Assembly (NCBI RefSeq): GCF_008326345.1
Contig: NZ_BJEN01000003.1
Span: 496,001 to 560,000, forward strand
Direction of reading: 5' to 3'
From: Cutibacterium modestum
GTDB lineage: Bacteria; Actinomycetota; Actinomycetes; Propionibacteriales; Propionibacteriaceae
DNA length: 64,000 nt
The translations under genes and the position numbers were made by a program. The stretch's first letter is position 1. The number at the start of each line of letters is the position of its first letter. Positions 26,279-38,270 of the stretch are shown here, piece by piece. The notes under the pieces are model-generated. The model worked only from the letters and a program-made list of their open reading frames with translations. It had not been told where the DNA came from and ran no database searches.

Positions 26279-27541
26279 TTAGAAAAACGGTCGCCAAGGC
26301 GACAGTAGAGCTTCAGTGAGTTTTGCTACGTGAGAGCGTGACTGCCATTCGTCTAGAGTCAGTTCCACGCAGTTAGCCACGTCGATCTCGAAAATTTCGG
26401 CCATTCGTTGGGCGACGGTGGGGTCAGTGATAGCGACGTTTACCTCATAGTTGCCTTGGAGGGATAACCGGTCGAGATTCGCCGTGCCAATCGTCGACCA
26501 AATGCCGTCAATAGTGCAGGTCTTCGCGTGGACCATGGCTCCCTGGTAAAGGAATAGGCGCACGCCCTGGTGGAGAAGACGTTCGTAGTAACCCCGGCTC
26601 AGCCAGTCGGCGATGATATGGTTCGATTCAGCCGGAATGACGATCCTGACGTCAACCCCGCGGGATGCAGCTTGGTGGAGGGCCGCGATGACATCGTCAT
26701 CGGGGATGAGGTAACCCTGGGTCATCCAGATCCGTTCACTTGCGCGATCGATGGCCTCTAGGTACATGTTCCGGATGGGATAGACCGCCATTCGGGGGGA
26801 GTTGCGATGCACAGCGAAAGGGGTATCCCAATAACGCACGTCGGGGGATGGCAATACGGGTTGGTTGCGTCGGGGGGCCAGAGCTCCCTTGGGACGCTGA
26901 TTCCACATATCGACAAAGGCATTTTCGAGTTCCCCGACGGCGGGGCCGGTAATACGAGCATGGGTGTCGCGCCAGCGGTCGGCGTAGAGGGCGCCGATGT
27001 TGTAACCGCCGATGTAGGCGACTTTGGAATCGACGATGAGGAGCTTGCGGTGGTCTCGCCCCAGATTGCGCAGCGTCGGCATCCATGAGGGGGTGACGAG
27101 AGGCTGGGCCCGTACCTGCACCCCCTCGAGTTGCCGAAAGAACCGTGGGCCTACAACGAGGTTGGCGAAGGTGTCCCACATCGCATAAACCTTGACCCCG
27201 CGGGCGGCCGCTTCCACGAGTGACTGCCGGAAACGGCGCCCAACATTGTCGTTCTTCCAGATGAAAGTCTCAAGGTAGACGGTGTGTTGAGCTGACTCGA
27301 CATCGGAGATCATCGCCGCATAAAGATCGCGTCCGAATGTGAAAATCTCGACCTGATGGCCGGACACTTCGAGGGGTTCCACTGGTGCAGTGGGGAAACG
27401 GTATGGGCGCCGGCCTCGTCGTTTGATGCCGTTAAAGGCGACTAGTCCTGCCATCGTGGCTATCTGGGCGGCAACCACCCCGCCCGCTGTCCAGTGCAGT
27501 GCGCGGCGAACAGTGAATCTTTGGCGAGGGATCCGGGTCAT
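26279..27541 (-). CDS. Cardiolipin synthase-like phospholipase D-family protein
   Basis: A protein of 420 aa with two PLD domains and an N-terminal membrane segment (WTAGGVVAAQIATMAGLVAF). Both HKD motifs are complete: HRKLLIVDSKVAYIGGYNIG in the first half and HAKTCTIDGIWSTIGTANLD in the second. This is the layout of ClsA/ClsB-type cardiolipin synthases that condense phosphatidylglycerol or use PG with another phospholipid. It is shorter than E. coli ClsA, with a single N-terminal TM helix rather than two. I start at the ATG at 27541; another ATG lies two codons upstream. It follows metI on the same strand, 118 nt away. Confidence 0.88.
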   Translation of the reverse strand: MTRIPRQRFTVRRALHWTAGGVVAAQIATMAGLVAFNGIKRRGRRPYRFPTAPVEPLEVSGHQVEIFTFGRDLYAAMISDVESAQHTVYLETFIWKNDNVGRRFRQSLVEAAARGVKVYAMWDTFANLVVGPRFFRQLEGVQVRAQPLVTPSWMPTLRNLGRDHRKLLIVDSKVAYIGGYNIGALYADRWRDTHARITGPAVGELENAFVDMWNQRPKGALAPRRNQPVLPSPDVRYWDTPFAVHRNSPRMAVYPIRNMYLEAIDRASERIWMTQGYLIPDDDVIAALHQAASRGVDVRIVIPAESNHIIADWLSRGYYERLLHQGVRLFLYQGAMVHAKTCTIDGIWSTIGTANLDRLSLQGNYEVNVAITDPTVAQRMAEIFEIDVANCVELTLDEWQSRSHVAKLTEALLSPWRPFF

Positions 27542-27659
27542 GTGCACAGAGTACCGGGCCCCCGTGCACCGGCTGTGAGGTAATCGGCGTCGGGGACCCG
27601 GAATGAATGGGTGTTGTCGTCAAGAATTATACGCTGGGTGCGCTATATCGCCGCAATGC

Positions 27660-28313
27660 TTACCGCCGCAGTGCGCGGCGGGCCAGCCAGTTGCCTAAGA
27701 ACTGCGCCAACTGCACGACGATGATGATCGTTACCACTGCGATGGCTGTGACTGCCCAATTGTAACGCTGGTAACCGTAGGTAATGGCGAATTGACCTAG
27801 ACCGCCGCCACCCAGGGCGCCAGCGATGGCCGTCATATCGACAATCGCAATGAGGATGTAGGTGTAACCGAGAATCAGCGGCCCCAGCGCCTCCCGGGCA
27901 ACGACGTCAAAAAGGATTCGCCACGGCCCGGCCCCCATAGCACGGGCGGCCTCAATAACACCAGGATCAACGGTGACGAGATTCTGCTCAACAATCCGAG
28001 AGATGGCGAAGGTCGCCGCGATGCACAGTGGGAAGGTGGCCGCCCGTACTCCGATCGTGGTGCCGATGACCTTGAGGGTGAGGGGAGCGATAGCCGTCAT
28101 AAAGATGATAAACGGAATCGGCCTAATGATGTTGACGATGATGTTGAGGATGGTGTGAACGGCCTTGTTGGCCAGTAGACCACCACGCCGGGCGGCATAC
28201 AACAAGTTTCCTAGCACTAGGCCACAGATTCCTCCAATGACGAGGGTGATAAGGGCCATGAAGAGGGTTTCCCAAATTGACTGAAGATAGATAGGGCGCA
28301 AATAGTCGTTCAT
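27660..28313 (-). CDS. metI: Methionine ABC transporter permease
   Basis: A 217-aa MetI-type permease with five TM segments. The coupling-loop motif is EAARAMGAGPWRILFDVVAREA, followed by GPLILGYTYILIAIVDMTAIAGALGGGGLG. This pattern is specific to the D/L-methionine uptake family. Its ATG overlaps the metN stop by one base (TGATG). It is the last gene of the metQ-metN-metI operon and would work as a homodimer in the membrane with MetN. Confidence 0.95.
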   Translation of the reverse strand: MNDYLRPIYLQSIWETLFMALITLVIGGICGLVLGNLLYAARRGGLLANKAVHTILNIIVNIIRPIPFIIFMTAIAPLTLKVIGTTIGVRAATFPLCIAATFAISRIVEQNLVTVDPGVIEAARAMGAGPWRILFDVVAREALGPLILGYTYILIAIVDMTAIAGALGGGGLGQFAITYGYQRYNWAVTAIAVVTIIIVVQLAQFLGNWLARRALRR

Positions 28314-29410
28314 CAGTGGGCCTCCTCGCCGGTCGTCGAGACGATTGCAGGAACGGCCGGTGCCGCCGAGTCGGATACCTCGTCGAGGATGCGAGCAGCC
28401 TGCTCGACAGCCTGAGCCGGACCAGACAAGGCCACGGTGTAATTGCCCAGCGAGCCGTCATGTACCTCAATGACACCACCGTGGACGATCTGGAAGGTCG
28501 CCCCAGTGTGGCTTATGCGAGCTAACGCGGTCCCGAAAGAGTCGCTGGCGACCGAACTGACGTCGACGAGTCGGGCATCAGGGTTTTCTGACTGCAACCG
28601 TGCCTGCTCCTCCCCGTTAGGGTGCTGGCCGATAATCGTCGCCAGGAAGCGCTGGGTGGTCTCAGACTGTGGGTGAGCAAAGACCTGCCGGGCGCTCCCA
28701 GACTCGACGAGATGGCCAGCTTCTAGCACTGAGACCTGCTGGGCGATCGAGCGGACGACCTCCATCTCGTGGGTGATGACGACAACCGTCACCCCAAGTT
28801 CTGCATTGACTCGTTTGAGCAACGATAAGACATCGGCCGTCGTTTCTGGATCAAGGGCTGAGGTGGATTCATCAGCCAACAGAATCGACGGTTTCGTTGC
28901 GAGAGCTCGCGCGATGCCAACCCGCTGCTTCTGCCCACCCGAGAGCTGGTCTGGGTGGTCCCAGGCTTTGCTCGTCAACCCGACGAAGCTCAGCAACTCG
29001 GTGACGCGCTTTTTCTCCTCCACCTTCTTCCAGCGAGCTAGCTTGAGCGGATAGGCAACGTTGTCGTAGATGGTCCTTGACCCGAACAGGTTGAACTGCT
29101 GGAAGATCATCCCGATGTCTGCGCGCAGCGGTCGCATCGCCTTGTCCGAGAGCTGGGCGACATCGGTGCCGTCTACCAGGACGCGGCCCCTTGTGGGTGT
29201 CTCTAACCCGTTGGTGAGGCGCACCAGAGTGGATTTGCCAGCCCCGGAGTGCCCGATGACGGCTGAGATGGAACCTCTCTTGATAGCCAAGCTCACATCG
29301 TCAAGGGCTCGTACTGTGCCGGAGCGGGTACGAAACTCCTTAGTGACGTGATCGAAGACGATGTGGTCAGGACACTGCGGCGCCGAGGAAGGCGCGATGT
29401 CTGTTGCCAT
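28313..29410 (-). CDS. metN: Methionine ABC transporter ATP-binding protein with NIL domain
   Basis: A 365-aa ABC ATPase. Walker A is GHSGAGKST near residue 54, the signature is QLSGGQKQRVGIARAL, and Walker B is ILLADESTSALDPETT, the MetN form. A C-terminal NIL domain (about 280-350) would bind methionine and inhibit uptake when the internal pool is high. Length is normal for the family. It lies 31 nt downstream of metQ and overlaps metI. The whole operon would share the metQ leader. Confidence 0.95.
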   Translation of the reverse strand: MATDIAPSSAPQCPDHIVFDHVTKEFRTRSGTVRALDDVSLAIKRGSISAVIGHSGAGKSTLVRLTNGLETPTRGRVLVDGTDVAQLSDKAMRPLRADIGMIFQQFNLFGSRTIYDNVAYPLKLARWKKVEEKKRVTELLSFVGLTSKAWDHPDQLSGGQKQRVGIARALATKPSILLADESTSALDPETTADVLSLLKRVNAELGVTVVVITHEMEVVRSIAQQVSVLEAGHLVESGSARQVFAHPQSETTQRFLATIIGQHPNGEEQARLQSENPDARLVDVSSVASDSFGTALARISHTGATFQIVHGGVIEVHDGSLGNYTVALSGPAQAVEQAARILDEVSDSAAPAVPAIVSTTGEEAH

Positions 29411-29441
29411 GTGGAAGGCCTCGCTGGAAATCGGATGTGGG

Positions 29442-30401
29442 TCACGAGTTTGACTTTTTGATGCTGGTAGTTAGGTCGCTGAGGATTTTGTCCAGATCGG
29501 CCTTGGAACGGCCGGAGGCGATCTTGGCGGTGCCACCAGACTGTTTGATAATGGCTTTCTCGACGTCGGGATCGGACCACAGCTTGGCGACCTTCTGGTA
29601 GGTCGGGTCGTTCTTGTCAGCGTCCTTGACCGCGATGATGTTGAGGTACGGATCGGCCGTCTTTCCGGTAGCGTCGTCGGTGTAGATAGCCTTGTTGCGG
29701 TCCAGTCCGGCATCCGCGGCGAAGTTGTTATTGACGACGGCACCATCGACGCCGTCGAGGGAGGCGGCAGTCTGAGCTGCATCGATCGCCTTAATCTTCA
29801 CCTTGGACTGGTTGGCGATGACGTCGGCGGGGGTCGATAGCGCCGAGCCGCTGCCACGTAGTTTCACCAGGCCAGCCTTCTGCAACACCAACAGGGCGCG
29901 TCCCTGGTTGGTGGCATCGTTCGGGATGGCGATGGTGGCCCCGGCTGGCAGCTGGGAGAGTTGCTGGTACTTCTTCGAGTAGACATTCAGCGGGACGATG
30001 TAGGTCGCGCTTAGTGGAGTGATGTTGTCGTGGTTTTTGACGTTGTAATCAGCTAGGAAAAGCAGGTGCTGGAAGGCGTTGAGGTCGACCTGCCCCTGGG
30101 ACAGCGCCACGTTAGGCTGGGTGTAATCGTTGAAGCTGACAACCTGAATATTGATGCCCTCAGCAGCGGCCTTTTCCTTGATGACGTTCCAGTAATCGTC
30201 GGCAGCCTCAGTCGTCCCGATCTTGACGGTCGTCTTGCCAGCGGCAGAGTTTTCTTCCTTGTTCTTGGCTACTGCAACAGTGATGCCCGCGATGATTGCG
30301 AGCGCGACGATGATGACTCCAATGATGAGGCCGGTGTGGCGTCCTCCGGGCTTTTCGGGAAGCGCCTCGGGGGTGGACGCCGAAGATGCAGGTGTGCTCA
30401 T
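29442..30401 (-). CDS. metQ: Methionine-binding protein (NlpA/MetQ family), TM-anchored
   Basis: A 319-aa protein. The NlpA domain covers about residues 58-315: VKIGTTEAADDYWNVIKEKA, FNDYTQPNVALSQGQVDLNAFQH and a C-terminal block of conserved Lys and Asp residues. It captures methionine outside the cell. The N-terminus is a surprise: no lipobox Cys is present. Instead a positively flanked TM helix (GLIIGVIIVALAIIAGITVAV) serves as an uncleaved anchor after a 23-residue Ser/Pro-rich cytoplasmic segment. CAGGAGACTTATC precedes the ATG at 30401; the frame is open to 30518 but those codons belong to the regulatory leader. The mRNA leader contains a Met/Cys-rich ORF and two hairpins. Confidence 0.93.
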   Translation of the reverse strand: MSTPASSASTPEALPEKPGGRHTGLIIGVIIVALAIIAGITVAVAKNKEENSAAGKTTVKIGTTEAADDYWNVIKEKAAAEGINIQVVSFNDYTQPNVALSQGQVDLNAFQHLLFLADYNVKNHDNITPLSATYIVPLNVYSKKYQQLSQLPAGATIAIPNDATNQGRALLVLQKAGLVKLRGSGSALSTPADVIANQSKVKIKAIDAAQTAASLDGVDGAVVNNNFAADAGLDRNKAIYTDDATGKTADPYLNIIAVKDADKNDPTYQKVAKLWSDPDVEKAIIKQSGGTAKIASGRSKADLDKILSDLTTSIKKSNS

Positions 30402-30425
30402 GATAAGTCTCCTGGAAATGTCGCA

Positions 30426-30453
30426 GATAGGTGTGGCGAACGACTCACCTATC
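30426..30453 (-). promoter_or_regulatory. hairpin in the metQ leader, close to the ribosome binding site
   Basis: GATAGGTG and CACCTATC form a perfect 8-bp stem with a 12-nt loop. It ends 24 nt upstream of the metQ ATG and could affect ribosome access. Confidence 0.5.
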
Positions 30454-30551
30454 CTGGGGTCGTCCGGGGTGGCATGCCGGTATGCGTCACGACACAGATA
30501 TGGGTATAGGTCGACCACTGGCTCAAATTCAGTGGGAGAGGTACGGAAGTC

Positions 30552-30579
30552 CTGCCGGCGGAGATAAACCCGCCGTCAG
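30552..30579 (-). promoter_or_regulatory. attenuator-type hairpin over the stop codon of the metQ leader ORF
   Basis: The arms CTGACGGCGG and CCGCCGGCAG pair with a single mismatch around an 8-nt loop. The TGA stop codon of the leader ORF is inside the left arm, so a ribosome finishing the leader peptide would melt this stem, and one stalled earlier would let it form. Confidence 0.65.
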
Positions 30580-30674
30580 CAGGTGCCGAGCATTCGCAGG
30601 CAGCACGGGCGGCACATCATCATCGAAGCCGCGCGAAGGTCGGCGTCGACGGTGTGGCTGAAGGCCGCAGTCAT
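30576..30674 (-). CDS. Met/Cys-rich leader peptide upstream of metQNI
   Basis: A 32-codon ORF with its own Shine-Dalgarno sequence (AGGAG, 7 nt before the ATG) and a -35/-10 promoter upstream. The last 15 residues read MMMCRPCCLRMLGTC: four Met and four Cys, both normally rare amino acids. The TGA stop lies in the left arm of a stable hairpin. It is 174 nt upstream of metQ on the same strand. Position, codon content and RNA structure fit a translational-sensing leader: charged Met-tRNA and Cys-tRNA supply would set ribosome progress and thus downstream folding. Cysteine-rich leader ORFs that act as attenuators are known in mycobacteria; the combination with Met codons before a methionine transporter is not one I recognise. 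Translation is inferred, not shown. Confidence 0.7.
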   Translation of the reverse strand: MTAAFSHTVDADLRAASMMMCRPCCLRMLGTC

Positions 30675-30688
30675 GGTAGTGCTCCTGG

Positions 30689-30721
30689 ATTAGATAAAGA
30701 CCTCACTCGAGAGTCTGTCAA
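30689..30721 (-). promoter_or_regulatory. promoter of the metQ leader transcript
   Basis: TTGACA (30716-30721) is a perfect -35. TTTATCTAAT (30689-30698) is the AT-rich -10 region, 17-18 nt downstream. The leader ORF starts 14 nt further on. Confidence 0.7.
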
Positions 30722-31483
30722 GAACGTAGGCGGTAGTCGCGGCATATGTCAACTCTGTGATGACGCTCATCACGTCTGGCAGCGTGGTCGCGTTCAGGTG
30801 CGTGCGCATTCACGGCAGCAGACTCAGCGGAGGATCTGGTCGTGTGTACCGGTACACAGGGAGTTTGCCATGTCGTCGATCGTGTACCAGACTCAGCCAA
30901 CCTGCCAGATTGGCCACGTGACGATCCCGAGCGCCACGCCACTCGCCCTCAGCTCGTGCATGTGATAGCGGCAGTTGTGGCCGTCAAAGCACCACAGTCC
31001 AGAGGGTCGCCGTCGATGCAGACGGCGATCGCTGCGCCATAGGACGTGACAGAGAACATGGGTTCCGCCGTGTTTGTGAAACCAAGGCCCGGTGCGTTTT
31101 TGCCGTCGGTGCCAGTTATAACACGGGCGTGGCCCATCGGGTCGTAGCGTTGGCCACTATTGCGGCCGGCAATGGGTAAAAGTCCGAGAACCCGAGTCCA
31201 CTAGCACCACATCCGGGTGAGGACGCAGAGGAGATCCGATTGCCGTTGTGTGTTCATCAACTTGGTCGGCAGGTTCTGGCATGGCCACCTGGCCCATTGT
31301 GGGGCGATCCCACCGTTAGGAGCTCCCCTTGAAAAAATCGGTCTGGTTACGCGCCCAGATCTGTTCACCGGGGGTATCTAGCGCCATTCGGGCAGGCCCC
31401 ATCTGGCGGGTCGCCAACATGTCGGCCACCAGCCAGCACCACTTTGCCTGCACTGCGTCCCCATCCCAGAAGGTAGGAGAATT
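30722..31483. other. degenerate spacer between the metQ promoter and pcrA
   Basis: No complete gene was found in about 760 nt. The minus strand has protein-like but interrupted frames. One open frame of 62 codons (31316-31504) reads KWCWLVADMLATRQMGPARM and ALDTPGEQIWARNQTDFFKG and ends in TAA. Another (30949-31137) reads AAIAVCIDGDPLDCGALTAT. None has a recognised domain or start signal, so I read the stretch as remnants of one or more lost genes. A 16-nt perfect palindrome lies at 30843-30858. Confidence 0.5.
30843..30858. repeat. 16-nt perfect palindrome
   Basis: TGTGTACCGGTACACA is its own reverse complement. It is about 120 nt upstream of the metQ leader -35 box. An operator role is possible; no regulator was identified. 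Confidence 0.4.
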
Positions 31484-31684
31484 ATGCGCGAGCCCCTCAG
31501 CCGATTAGGCCGGGGCATCCAACAATTCAGGTGGGCGTGCTTCCTAGCCTGTCGCGCTAACTCAGGGGATGAAGTTGAGGTACGTCCAGGGCTCTTGAAT
31601 GCGATTCGCTGTGAACGTTTGAGGCTATGCCCTCTATGCCACGCCGGAGGCAGCTATGGGCCGGTAGGCTGTGAGTCGCCATGA
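31484..31684 (+). CDS. Small hypothetical protein upstream of and overlapping pcrA
   Basis: A 66-codon ORF. GTAGGAGA 3-10 nt before the ATG is a good ribosome binding site, and the stop codon overlaps the pcrA start (ATGA). The product is basic with five Cys (RCERLRLCPLCHAG contains a C-x2-C pair) and matches no family I know. It may be a real small protein, a coupling ORF for pcrA, or chance. It overlaps a minus-strand protein-like open frame by 21 nt, so both are unlikely to be real. Confidence 0.3.
   Translation: MREPLSRLGRGIQQFRWACFLACRANSGDEVEVRPGLLNAIRCERLRLCPLCHAGGSYGPVGCESP
31665..31670 (+). promoter_or_regulatory. -10-like hexamer upstream of pcrA
   Basis: TAGGCT ends 10 nt before the pcrA ATG. 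With no Shine-Dalgarno sequence adjacent to the ATG, a very short leader or leaderless start is possible; coupling to the 66-codon ORF is the alternative. Confidence 0.35.
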
Positions 31685-34113
31685 CGACACCGAATCTGTT
31701 TTCGTTTTTCGAATCGGCCAATGAGAGACGCAGCCCCGTTGAACCCGGGGTCTTGCCGGCCTATGCTCCAGCGAGGGCCGGGACGGCCGCCCCTGCTGAC
31801 CTGCTGGCCGACCTCAACGAGCCCCAGCGCGAGGCTGTGCTGCACGCCGGATCGCCGGTCCTCGTCGTCGCGGGTGCAGGCTCGGGAAAGACGAGAGTTC
31901 TAACGCGACGTATCGCGCATCTGGTGGGGGAGCGGGGCGTTCATCCTGGTTCGATTTTGGCCATTACCTTCACCAATAAGGCGGCGGCTGAGATGAAGGC
32001 GCGCGTCGTAGACCTGGTAGGAAATCGCGCTAAACCGATGTGGGTGTCAACCTTCCATTCTGCCGCGGTGAGGATGCTACGCACCGACATTGATCGCCTG
32101 GGTATTTCCCGCAATTTCTCAATCTATGACGATACCGATGCCAAAAGACTCGTCACTCTGGTTACCCGCGATCATAATTTGGATCCTAAGAAGTTTCAGC
32201 AGCGTGCTATTATGAACTGGATCTCAAATCAAAAAAACGAGCTTATTTCTCCGGATGAAGCGCGCGCGGCTGCAAGTACCGGCAATGACCGCACCAATGG
32301 TGAAGTCTACGCCGAATACCAACGTAGACTTCGTGCCGCAAACGCCTTAGATTTCGATGATCTCATCATGTGTACCGTCACTCTGTTGAGGCAGTTCCCT
32401 GAGGTTCGCGAACAGTACCGACGCCGTTTTAGGCACGTCCTCGTCGATGAGTACCAGGACACTAACACCGCCCAATATCAGTTCATTCGTGAGCTGTGTG
32501 GGGATGACCCGGTCGAATTAGATGACGGTGCTCGCAGTGTCGATCCGCCAGAGCTCATGGTGGTTGGTGACTCGGATCAGTCGATTTACGCATTCCGGGG
32601 CGCGACAATCCGAAACATCCTTGACTTCGAGAAGGATTTCCCAGGGGCTAGGACGATTCTGTTGGAGCAGAATTATCGCTCTACTCAGACGATTCTTTCC
32701 GCTGCAAATAATCTCATCAAGATGAATCCGAGTCGTCCTGTCAAGAATCTGTGGACCGACCAGGGAGACGGCGACAAGATCGTCGGATATGTCGCCGATA
32801 CCGAACATGACGAGGCCGCTTGGGTAGCCCGACGGATTGACGAACTCGTCGATGAGGGGCGCACCAGCTACGGACAGGTGGCCGTCTTTTACCGCACCAA
32901 CGCTCAGTCGAGGGCCTTCGAGGATGTCTTCATCCGCACCGGCCTGCCCTATCGCGTCGTCGGCGGTGTGAGGTTCTATGAGCGCAAAGAAGTCCGGGAC
33001 GCCGTCAGTTACCTACGCGCCATCGCGAACCCCTCCGATGATGTTTCCCTGCGTCGCATTCTCAATACACCGCGTCGCGGCATTGGGACGCGAGCCGAGG
33101 CGGCCGTCGAGATGTTTGCTACAGCTCGCCGGATTAGCTTCTGGGAGGCCCTGAAACGGATCGACGAGATCGACGCTCTGGCAACCAGGTCGGTCAATCA
33201 GATCCGAGCCTTCGTTAGTCTCATGGACGACCACATCGCGATGGTGGAGCAGGGGAAACGCGCTGACGAGATCGCCAGCTCGATCCTGAAAGAATCCGGC
33301 TACATCGCCGAATTAGAGAACTCCAAGGACCCACAGGATGAGACGAGACTGGAAAACCTCATCGAGCTCGCCTCGGTGGCCCAGGAATTCGTCGCCAGAG
33401 TCCATACTGTCGACATTGAGGAGGCTGAGCAGGATACCGTCGAAGACCTTGAGCTGTCTGGCGACGACTCCCTGCCGGCCTTCCTGGAGCAGATCGCTTT
33501 GGTGGCCGATTCCGACCAGGTTCCTGCCGACTCTGACGGAGTCGTCACCCTTATGACCCTGCACACTGCAAAAGGTCTGGAATTCGATACGGTCTTCATC
33601 ACTGGGTTTGAGGACGGTGTCTTCCCTCACATGAGGTCCCTTGCCGACGCCACCGAACTGTCCGAGGAGAGGCGATTGGCCTACGTCGGTATCACTCGCG
33701 CCCGCAAACAGCTGTTTTTGTCGCGGGCTTCGGTGCGCACCATGTGGGGCGAGGCCCAGTACAACCCGCCGAGCCGATTCGTTGACGAGATCCCCCCACG
33801 CCTCATTGATTGGGAGAGAATCGGTCAGGCCTCGGTGGGATGGTCAACGTCGGCGAGTGACCGCTCTCAATCAGCACGCGGGTCCCTACGCGACGACATT
33901 CCGGCTTTTGGTTCTGGGCGAGGGCTAGCAAGCGCGCCCAAAGGACGTGCCCTCGCGCTGTCGGTAGGGGACAAGGTACTTCACTCCACCTTCGGGCTGG
34001 GAACCGTCAAGGCCACGTCCGGCAAAAGCGACAACGCGAAGGCTGACGTCGACTTCGGATCGGCTGGGCTCAAAAGGCTGGCGCTGCGATTCGCGCCGTT
34101 GGAGAAACTGTGA
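31681..34113 (+). CDS. pcrA: ATP-dependent DNA helicase PcrA/UvrD
   Basis: An 810-aa superfamily 1A helicase. Motif I is VAGAGSGKTRVLTRRI near residue 60, motif Ia ITFTNKAAAEMKAR, motif II VDEYQDTN and motif III VGDSDQSIYAFRGA. Motif IV is LEQNYRST, motif V LMTLHTAKGLEFD and motif VI VGITRARKQL. The C-terminal PcrA module (KVLHSTFGLGTVKATSGK to the end) is present and in relatives contacts RNA polymerase. It unwinds DNA 3'-5' in nucleotide excision repair and plasmid replication. Length is typical of actinobacterial PcrA. It is a monocistron followed by the sucC promoter region. Confidence 0.97.
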   Translation: MTTPNLFSFFESANERRSPVEPGVLPAYAPARAGTAAPADLLADLNEPQREAVLHAGSPVLVVAGAGSGKTRVLTRRIAHLVGERGVHPGSILAITFTNKAAAEMKARVVDLVGNRAKPMWVSTFHSAAVRMLRTDIDRLGISRNFSIYDDTDAKRLVTLVTRDHNLDPKKFQQRAIMNWISNQKNELISPDEARAAASTGNDRTNGEVYAEYQRRLRAANALDFDDLIMCTVTLLRQFPEVREQYRRRFRHVLVDEYQDTNTAQYQFIRELCGDDPVELDDGARSVDPPELMVVGDSDQSIYAFRGATIRNILDFEKDFPGARTILLEQNYRSTQTILSAANNLIKMNPSRPVKNLWTDQGDGDKIVGYVADTEHDEAAWVARRIDELVDEGRTSYGQVAVFYRTNAQSRAFEDVFIRTGLPYRVVGGVRFYERKEVRDAVSYLRAIANPSDDVSLRRILNTPRRGIGTRAEAAVEMFATARRISFWEALKRIDEIDALATRSVNQIRAFVSLMDDHIAMVEQGKRADEIASSILKESGYIAELENSKDPQDETRLENLIELASVAQEFVARVHTVDIEEAEQDTVEDLELSGDDSLPAFLEQIALVADSDQVPADSDGVVTLMTLHTAKGLEFDTVFITGFEDGVFPHMRSLADATELSEERRLAYVGITRARKQLFLSRASVRTMWGEAQYNPPSRFVDEIPPRLIDWERIGQASVGWSTSASDRSQSARGSLRDDIPAFGSGRGLASAPKGRALALSVGDKVLHSTFGLGTVKATSGKSDNAKADVDFGSAGLKRLALRFAPLEKL

Positions 34114-38050: not shown

Positions 38051-38135
38051 GCTGTTTCGGACCGTCTGTGGTAACAAACCTGTGAGGTGATGCCGCACGC
38101 CATGGCGAACGGGTGCATACTTGACTACAAGCACA

Positions 38136-38264
38136 CGTGCTCCGGGGTCGGTGAAAGTCCGAACCGGCGGTGATAGTCCGCGACCCGAGCCGCCTTCGTG
38201 GCGGTGAGGTTGAACCGGTGAAATTCCGGTACCGACGGTTACAGTCCGGATGGGAGGTAGCACG
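38136..38264 (+). ncRNA. FMN riboswitch (RFN element)
   Basis: Conserved RFN blocks appear in order: GGGGTCGGTGAAAGTCCGAA, ACCGGCGGTGATAGTCCGCG, the variable GAGCCGCC hairpin, GTTGAACCGGTGAAATTCCGG and ACCGACGGTTACAGTCCGGA followed by TGGGAGGTAGCACG. The outer stem is CGTGCT/AGCACG. It binds FMN and controls the riboflavin operon that starts 78 nt downstream. Confidence 0.96.
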
Positions 38265-38270
38265 GTAAGT

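Follow-up and report, generated by a model that had tools for sequence, protein, structure and literature searches.

How is the methionine importer operon of Cutibacterium modestum regulated, and what part does the short open reading frame (ORF) in front of it play? The locus was analysed within a stretch of 64,000 nucleotides (the window; contig NZ_BJEN01000003.1, positions 496,001 to 560,000) of a 2.63-Mb genome; positions below are those of the window, on the reverse (-) strand unless marked (+). The operon comprises metQ (29442-30401; MetQ/NlpA family binding protein; TIGR00363, E 5.9e-45), metN (28313-29410; ATPase; best match TIGR02314) and metI (27660-28313; permease; best match NF008049), in this order, with all three matches below the curated cut-offs. 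Upstream of metQ on the same strand sits a 32-codon leader ORF (30674-30576; MTAAFSHTVDADLRAASMMMCRPCCLRMLGTC), which is supported by the ORF list, the alignment and the profile search, with a Shine-Dalgarno sequence and start codon (CCAGGAGCACTACCATG, 30672-30688) recognized by sequence comparison. As the original prediction had it, the ORF is rich in Met and Cys: its tail, MMMCRPCCLRMLGTC, holds four Met and four Cys. The ORF is preceded by CCAGGAGCACTACC. Two features of the ORF recur below, a Met run (ATGATGATG, 30615-30623) and the codon pair CGA-AUG for Arg27-Met28 (30591-30596). A gap of 174 nt (30402-30575) separates the leader stop codon from metQ.

The best explanation of this arrangement, and in our judgement a probable one, is a ribosome-read methionine leader attenuator of the metL type for the importer metQNI; Cys is probably a second input in the wider family, and we are less sure of it in the window's genus. 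The ribosome would slow at the leader Met codons, chiefly at CGA-AUG, when Met-tRNA is scarce, and Cys codons, often slow UGU codons, would add a cysteine input in many relatives. Its position would decide the formation of a stem at the stop codon (ACC UGC UGA with CRGCAGG), and this stem would decide whether transcription or translation proceeds into metQNI. Starvation would be expected to switch uptake on, given the role of the genes as an importer. Translation of the leader, stalling and the slow-codon effect are presumed here from comparative sequence data.

The leader ORF was found before metQ in all nine genomes of the window's genus (g1) that were searched, and in four genomes of genus g2, which we infer to be Acidipropionibacterium. 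When a profile of eight leader peptides was run against 198 genomes of the family, 11 were matched at E <0.001, i.e. nine of the window's genus and two of g2 (G010 and G012); the leaders of G009 and G013 (g2) were added by a motif scan of fetched loci, and a fifth g2 genome (G011; 86% complete) was not matched by the profile. Of the weaker matches (E up to 1), those that were fetched (L033-L051) were screened for a nearby metQ or metN, and L044 alone had a metN-like match nearby. An exact pattern scan of genome contigs gave 24 stretches, seven of them in Cutibacterium or Acidipropionibacterium records. For the genome carrying the window, the profile search gave no second leader copy at E up to 1, and the pattern TGYTGYTGYTGY was uninformative (12 matches versus 34 for the reversed control).

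Across the 13 leaders of g1 and g2, alignment gaps inside the ORF are multiples of three, and a GGAG lies within 14 nt of the start in each, a motif that was itself a requirement when leader starts were picked. The number of internal Met is three to five and that of Cys one to five. The Met cluster and the Arg-Met pair are constant in all nine leaders of the window's genus, in which the Cys number also ranges from one to five. The extreme case is G004, with five internal Met and a single Cys that lies outside the tail. Such variation favors a methionine-only sensor with incidental Cys codons, kept in part by pairing of UGC with the GCAGG arm of the stem, a reading that we regard as rather unlikely on the wider evidence given below.

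The last seven codons read CGA ATG nnC GGC ACC TGC TGA in 12 of the 13 leaders, with CGC in place of TGC in G004; residues R27, M28, G30 and T31 are invariant in all 13. At the nucleotide level CGAAUG, GGCACC and UGA are invariant in 13/13, with no synonymous change at the tail Arg, Gly and Thr, and synonymous changes occur elsewhere in the ORF (at His7, Arg14 and Ala15). Nascent peptides such as TnaC and SpeFL arrest the ribosome from within the exit tunnel, sensing their own ligands, and the four invariant residues would suit a C-terminal Arg-Met-x-Gly-Thr-Cys that senses Met or SAM in this way. We consider this improbable: leaders of other genera share the Met/Cys content and at most the Arg-Met, not the peptide, and a peptide sequence leaves the third-base bias for CGA (see below) unexplained.

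The same invariance at nucleotide level could point to an RNA element, i.e. CGAAUG and its surroundings as a structural or protein-binding motif to which the ORF is secondary. No Rfam family matches the leader stretch above its gathering score. The fungal snoRNA family RF01514 overlaps the stretch below threshold (23 bits versus a gathering score of 48; E 0.0057) and could be counted in favor of such an element; the match was put down to chance, as this family consists of eukaryotic C/D-box RNAs. By eye, a partner with which CGAAUG could pair was seen in one locus only (L066), and the gaps in multiples of three and the conserved Shine-Dalgarno sequence and start codon argue for an ORF, so that an RNA element also has a low probability.

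The candidate regulatory structure is the stem CTGCTGACGGCGG...CCGCCGGCAG (30551-30583), which bears out the original prediction of a hairpin whose left arm contains the leader stop codon. Its outer helix (P1) pairs CCUGCUG (30577-30583), in which the final Cys codon and a portion of the stop codon lie, with CGGCAGG (30551-30557), and shows a compensatory change from U-A to C-G in G004. The inner stem of the closest genomes pairs CGGCGG (30570-30575) with CCGCCG (30556-30561), with a compensatory change from G-C to A-U in G003 and G007. If one G-U is tolerated, 11 of the 13 genomes have a run of at least seven contiguous pairs at the stop codon, with six pairs in G001 and five in G012; in G008 the longest run lies 65 nt past the stop codon and the alignment uses a nearer copy. 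The fraction of shuffled sequences with a run at least as long is 0.013 to 0.257 for all but G012 (0.65), the five pairs of which are kept at a distance and are no better than shuffles.

In the alignment of 13, helix 1 (P1) has 98.5% of cells paired and one compensatory change; helix 2 (the inner stem) has 67.9% paired, with five of its six pairs changed on both sides, and fits the window's genus rather than g2. The whole structure exceeds all 500 shuffles in cells paired and in covariation score, and exceeds all six slid versions, which is partly expected because the structure was drawn from the same sequences; for the number of further pair types, 88 of the 500 shuffles reach the real value. 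RNAalifold found P1 independently, with a covariation term of only -0.06. RNAalifold also paired GCCG in codons 11-12 (30641-30644) as a candidate arm with CGGC in codons 29-30 (30585-30588), a helix in which three of four pairs are invariant and which is without covariation support.

How such a stem might act on metQ was explored by folding the 13 genomes with the ribosome modelled as absent, at the Met run, at Arg-Met or at the stop codon. P1 was predicted at 0.70, 0.75, 0.34 and 0.00, respectively (the last by construction); in G012 it reached only 0.01 with the ribosome at the Met run. The model therefore separates a ribosome at the end of the leader from one stalled early, but gives no distinction between a stalled ribosome and an absent one. 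For the metQ Shine-Dalgarno sequence, mean accessibility was 0.48, 0.48, 0.47 and 0.48 in the same four states; simple sequestration of this site is thus not supported, as accessibility of neither this sequence nor the metQ start was consistently changed by the modelled ribosome position. The 8-bp hairpin near the metQ ribosome binding site (30426-30453), which had been put forward as the switch, was dropped: by eye it is not conserved in the alignment.

A conserved partner of the P1 right arm (3:4 type) was not found downstream in the 13 genomes. Several of the minimum-energy folds for the closest genomes show, on visual inspection, a pairing of codons 28-29 with the metQ start, which is absent where codon 29 differs. 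With the ribosome on the stop codon, a stretch 31-32 nt before the stop is predicted to pair with the right arm in four of the 13 genomes; this stretch holds Cys codons, so that the methionine-only reading gains from it a structural reason for their retention.

No intrinsic terminator was found in the 174-nt gap; a hairpin seen by eye in the closest genomes (CCACTG...CCAGTGG, 30515-30535) has no U tract. The leader is therefore not classed with the classical trp/his-type attenuators: it shares with the trp, his, leu and ilv attenuators the tandem sensor codons and a stem over the end of the leader, but the terminator with a U tract was not found here. The gap is rich in C over G in all 13 genomes (C/G 1.36 to 2.08), as compared with a median of 0.96 and a maximum of 1.29 for 15 control upstream regions of the window, one of which (C/G 1.28) was drawn from a longer metQ ORF and covers mostly the leader; the window's own gap, at 1.36, is only just above the highest control. 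Such a composition fits Rho-dependent termination. As the search for an intrinsic terminator was negative and the metQ start showed no consistent change, Rho-dependent termination within the gap is our preferred candidate for the output, which is the least secure step of the model.

Do such leaders occur before metQ elsewhere? For 118 metQ-like genes from family and class searches, as much as 500 nt of upstream sequence was collected; these places were picked by hand, mostly best-scoring first, from a subset of the matches listed. For an amino-acid-pair test, 117 of the 118 loci (42 genera) were kept, with 450 nt each, and the one with a short upstream sequence was left out; a locus was counted when its best short ORF reached a -log10 p of 3.5, and the antisense and far-upstream ORFs used as controls also supplied the background. 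The pair Cys+Met ranked first of 190 amino-acid pairs, with 33 of 117 loci in 10 genera versus nine loci for the next pair, and with 0/117 loci in the antisense control and 1/117 in the stretch 500-950 nt upstream. The Met/Cys leader is thus more than chance by this test with both controls, in sequences that share ancestry, so that the counts overstate independence. An earlier scan with a fixed background (35/118 sense versus 4/118 antisense loci) is superseded by the pair test.

Single amino acids gave Cys first (14 loci, 8 genera) and Met second (seven loci, 6 genera; two loci in antisense). This first place of Cys among the single amino acids speaks against Cys codons that are merely incidental to a methionine sensor. 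All 33 Cys+Met loci above threshold belong to families f1 and f18, with none in f2 and f30; examples are VMMPMLCCGRMLCAC (G120), MGSAMLMHGCHMCCCMR (G065) and MSMCPMRMRRCR (G254).

The remaining 84 of the 117 upstream regions are below threshold. They include second metQ copies apparently behind metI, as judged from ORFs seen upstream, and also SRRHIDMMRANSDRCR (G126), a striking Met/Cys leader that nevertheless falls below. Two loci of genus g17 (L068 and L072; genomes G091 and G100) carry QLRMPG(G/C)R ORFs with CGA-AUG and a Cys-Cys-Arg end, likewise below threshold. Genus g22 (L077, L078 and L138, i.e. G131, G130 and G126) shows SRRHIDMMRAxSxRCR in G126 and G130, which we take to resemble the actinobacterial Cys leader consensus with Met-Met inside; G130 was below the cut-off against NF042936 (E 0.012) and likewise against NF042934, and G126 gave no match. 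These g22 leaders may connect the Cys type of leader with the Met type. The window leader matched neither NF042934 or NF042936 nor any other NCBIfam model.

Twenty of the below-threshold loci were scanned for RNA families, three of which (L068, L072 and L078) have the weaker leader candidates. A SAM-IV riboswitch (RF00634) was found just upstream of metQ in 2 of the 20 (G459 and G296, two genomes of another family; L107 2493-2603 (-) and L108 2678-2789 (-)), and 20 leader loci that were scanned gave no Rfam family above threshold. The riboswitch occupies the same place as the leader, but is a ligand-binding aptamer and not an ORF.

The metL peptide of Streptomyces lividans, used as query, gave E <0.001 in 55 of 61 genomes of genus g48, inferred to be Streptomyces. 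Among 30 g48 leaders that were read, 16 end in RCMCRMCAF and seven in RCMCRMRAF, and 29 of the 30, found by the peptide alone, lie 148-262 nt before a same-strand metN match. Met and Cys are soft-metal ligands, and a Met/Cys-rich peptide might on this ground sense copper or zinc instead of amino-acid supply. This we consider very improbable, in view of the metN matches behind 29 of the 30 peptide-found leaders and of SAM-IV in the same place in two genomes; the context of the metQ loci themselves is a weak argument here, as they were chosen as methionine-importer loci.

The metL leader before metNIQ of S. lividans TK24 (PMC8079986) is the closest described system: it too is a Met/Cys leader with Arg-Met near its end, and its authors likewise found no typical terminator. 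The window leader shares its metL-type features, i.e. Met and Cys before metQ and CGA-AUG near the stop codon. The two differ in that metL has a leaderless start and a different peptide, and the window leader is led by a Shine-Dalgarno sequence; the accessible text of PMC8079986 describes metL by its methionines and threonines and does not mention Cys or CGA-AUG.

The choice of codons gives the most specific signature. A set of 41 leaders was picked by eye for Met/Cys content and entered in part as tails instead of full ORFs; of the 40 Arg codons that immediately precede an AUG in this set, 33 are CGA and the other seven (in six leaders) CGC, a count that is conditional on this choice of leaders. 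None of the 70 Arg codons before any other codon is CGA, and the metQ genes of these loci use CGA for 6 of their 214 Arg codons. The 30 g48 leaders repeat the pattern, with CGA at 30 of 31 Arg codons before AUG and at none of 75 elsewhere. The pair CGA-AUG was counted in genera g1, g2, g20, g22, g23, g28 and g62 (two families) and in g48; g80 and g49 have Arg-Met with CGC only and no CGA, and both g7 leaders have no Arg-Met. CGA-AUG ORFs with Cys in G091, G100 and G178 were left out of the 41-leader count. Shared ancestry lowers the independent evidence for CGA-AUG.

Counted as a plain hexamer, CGAATG is present in the upstream region of 42 of the 117 loci, versus seven antisense and seven far upstream, and there is no comparable excess of CGC-ATG, CGG-ATG or CGT-ATG upstream of metQ. 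It ranks second among the hexamers present in 20 or more sense loci; once the 13 nearest loci are removed, it is tenth among those present in 12 or more. Because of these ranks, the strong statement is that on codon context, not that on the hexamer. As judged from these counts, selection apparently acts on the third position of an Arg codon that precedes Met.

A second bias concerns Cys. In the 41 leaders UGU makes up 55 of 130 Cys codons, as compared with U in 18 of 116 other NNY codons, and in the g48 leaders 58 of 81 Cys codons versus 2 of 116. In the metQ genes U ends 315 of 2957 NNY codons, and all 18 Cys codons are UGC. The UGU excess misfits a role of Cys codons in pairing with GCAGG, and thereby the methionine-only reading; in the window's genus itself, none of the nine leaders has UGU.

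How CGA is decoded may bear on its choice. The genome carrying the window has Arg anticodons ACG, CCG, CCT and TCT, and no tRNA-Arg(TCG) is among all 45 of its tRNA matches. The ACG tRNA would carry an inosine modification, and inosine-adenine wobble reads CGA. In the absence of a TCG tRNA, decoding of CGA should therefore fall to the ACG tRNA alone, by way of this wobble. In the his leader of Salmonella, CGA slows translation, and Arg-Arg pairs that carry CGA at one or the other of two sensor positions lead to high de-attenuation (PMC4046918). By analogy, CGA-AUG may be slow in actinobacteria.

These observations can be extended to a class of leaders, widespread in actinobacteria, that sense both Met and Cys, in which selection placed a slow, wobble-read CGA before the sensor AUG as well as UGU for Cys, and in which codon context, and not codon number alone, sets the sensitivity of the attenuator; we hold this extension as a tentative proposal, with chances close to even and slightly below. 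It would provide candidate RNA regulation of methionine uptake for several actinobacterial groups and a reason why Met and Cys sensing might be combined at a sulfur amino-acid importer, and the leaders would be natural examples of a synonymous choice beside a sensor codon that appears selected. With respect to the original prediction, a leader in which the ribosome reads Met/Cys supply is favored by the comparative evidence (recurrence before metQ and metN, the stem, and the Arg third base), and the switch fold that was to accompany it is not; its dual character stands at the codon level across the actinobacteria examined and is weak in G004.

The same prediction called a dual sensor undescribed in this genus. 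In titles and the beginnings of abstracts of the open-licence literature, no Met/Cys leader of Cutibacterium and no CGA-AUG in leaders were found; metL of S. lividans is published, as described above (PMC8079986). New here is the preference for CGA directly before Met in Met/Cys leaders. Related systems are the actinobacterial Cys leaders (PMC1262725, PMC4633059), which, as far as described in these sources, have Cys codons near the stop, precede sulfur genes and have no obvious terminator; in the window leader, by comparison, Met codons dominate. Such leaders were reported in front of cys operons in Mycobacterium and P. acnes (PMC1262725) and proposed in mycobacteria (PMC4633059), and cysteine genes of M. 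smegmatis are described as under translation attenuation (PMC13236596, citing Canestrari 2020). The accessible text of the 2005 actinobacterial survey reports that methionine operons are not preceded by conserved RNA structures (PMC1262725). Outside the phylum, MetL before metBA of C. jejuni (PMC3847290) is likewise a short ORF with three Met codons and a proposed leader peptide; it belongs to another phylum and precedes biosynthetic genes, and its RNA ends shortly after the stop codon. A T-box is found before a methionine transporter in a Firmicute (PMC2965389).

The leader would require a promoter further upstream than had been claimed. The claimed pair, TTGACA (30716-30721) and TTTATC (30693-30698), was rejected as the leader promoter: the RNA would begin at about the leader's own Shine-Dalgarno sequence, and the pair is not conserved. 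A -35-like TTGACA (30747-30752) aligns across the seven closest genomes of the genus, with the upstream stretch taken for G004 and G008 ending short of it, and a -10-like TACGTT (30723-30728) is seen in the alignment of upstream regions. This TACGTT is of the form TAnnnT, as is the -10 box of P. acnes (PMC3848588). The two boxes form a candidate promoter; a consensus pattern scan of the leader upstream stretch scored none.

Some further features of the window and genome were observed. A region of about 0.9 kb (30800-31680) separates the leader from a divergent gene (31681-34113 (+)), which is presumably UvrD/PcrA-like; the region has no ORF of more than 103 aa and could be a gene remnant. No tandem repeat was found in 27000-32000. 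Elsewhere in the same genome (locus L272), a Cys-rich short ORF, MCCCLCHSINAIRRQDQHDQDP, lies 219 to 150 nt upstream of a PALP-family gene, and is possibly the P. acnes cys-operon leader of PMC1262725. Within the window, one Rfam match alone reaches its gathering score, an FMN riboswitch (RF00050; 94.6 bits; 38133-38267 (+)).
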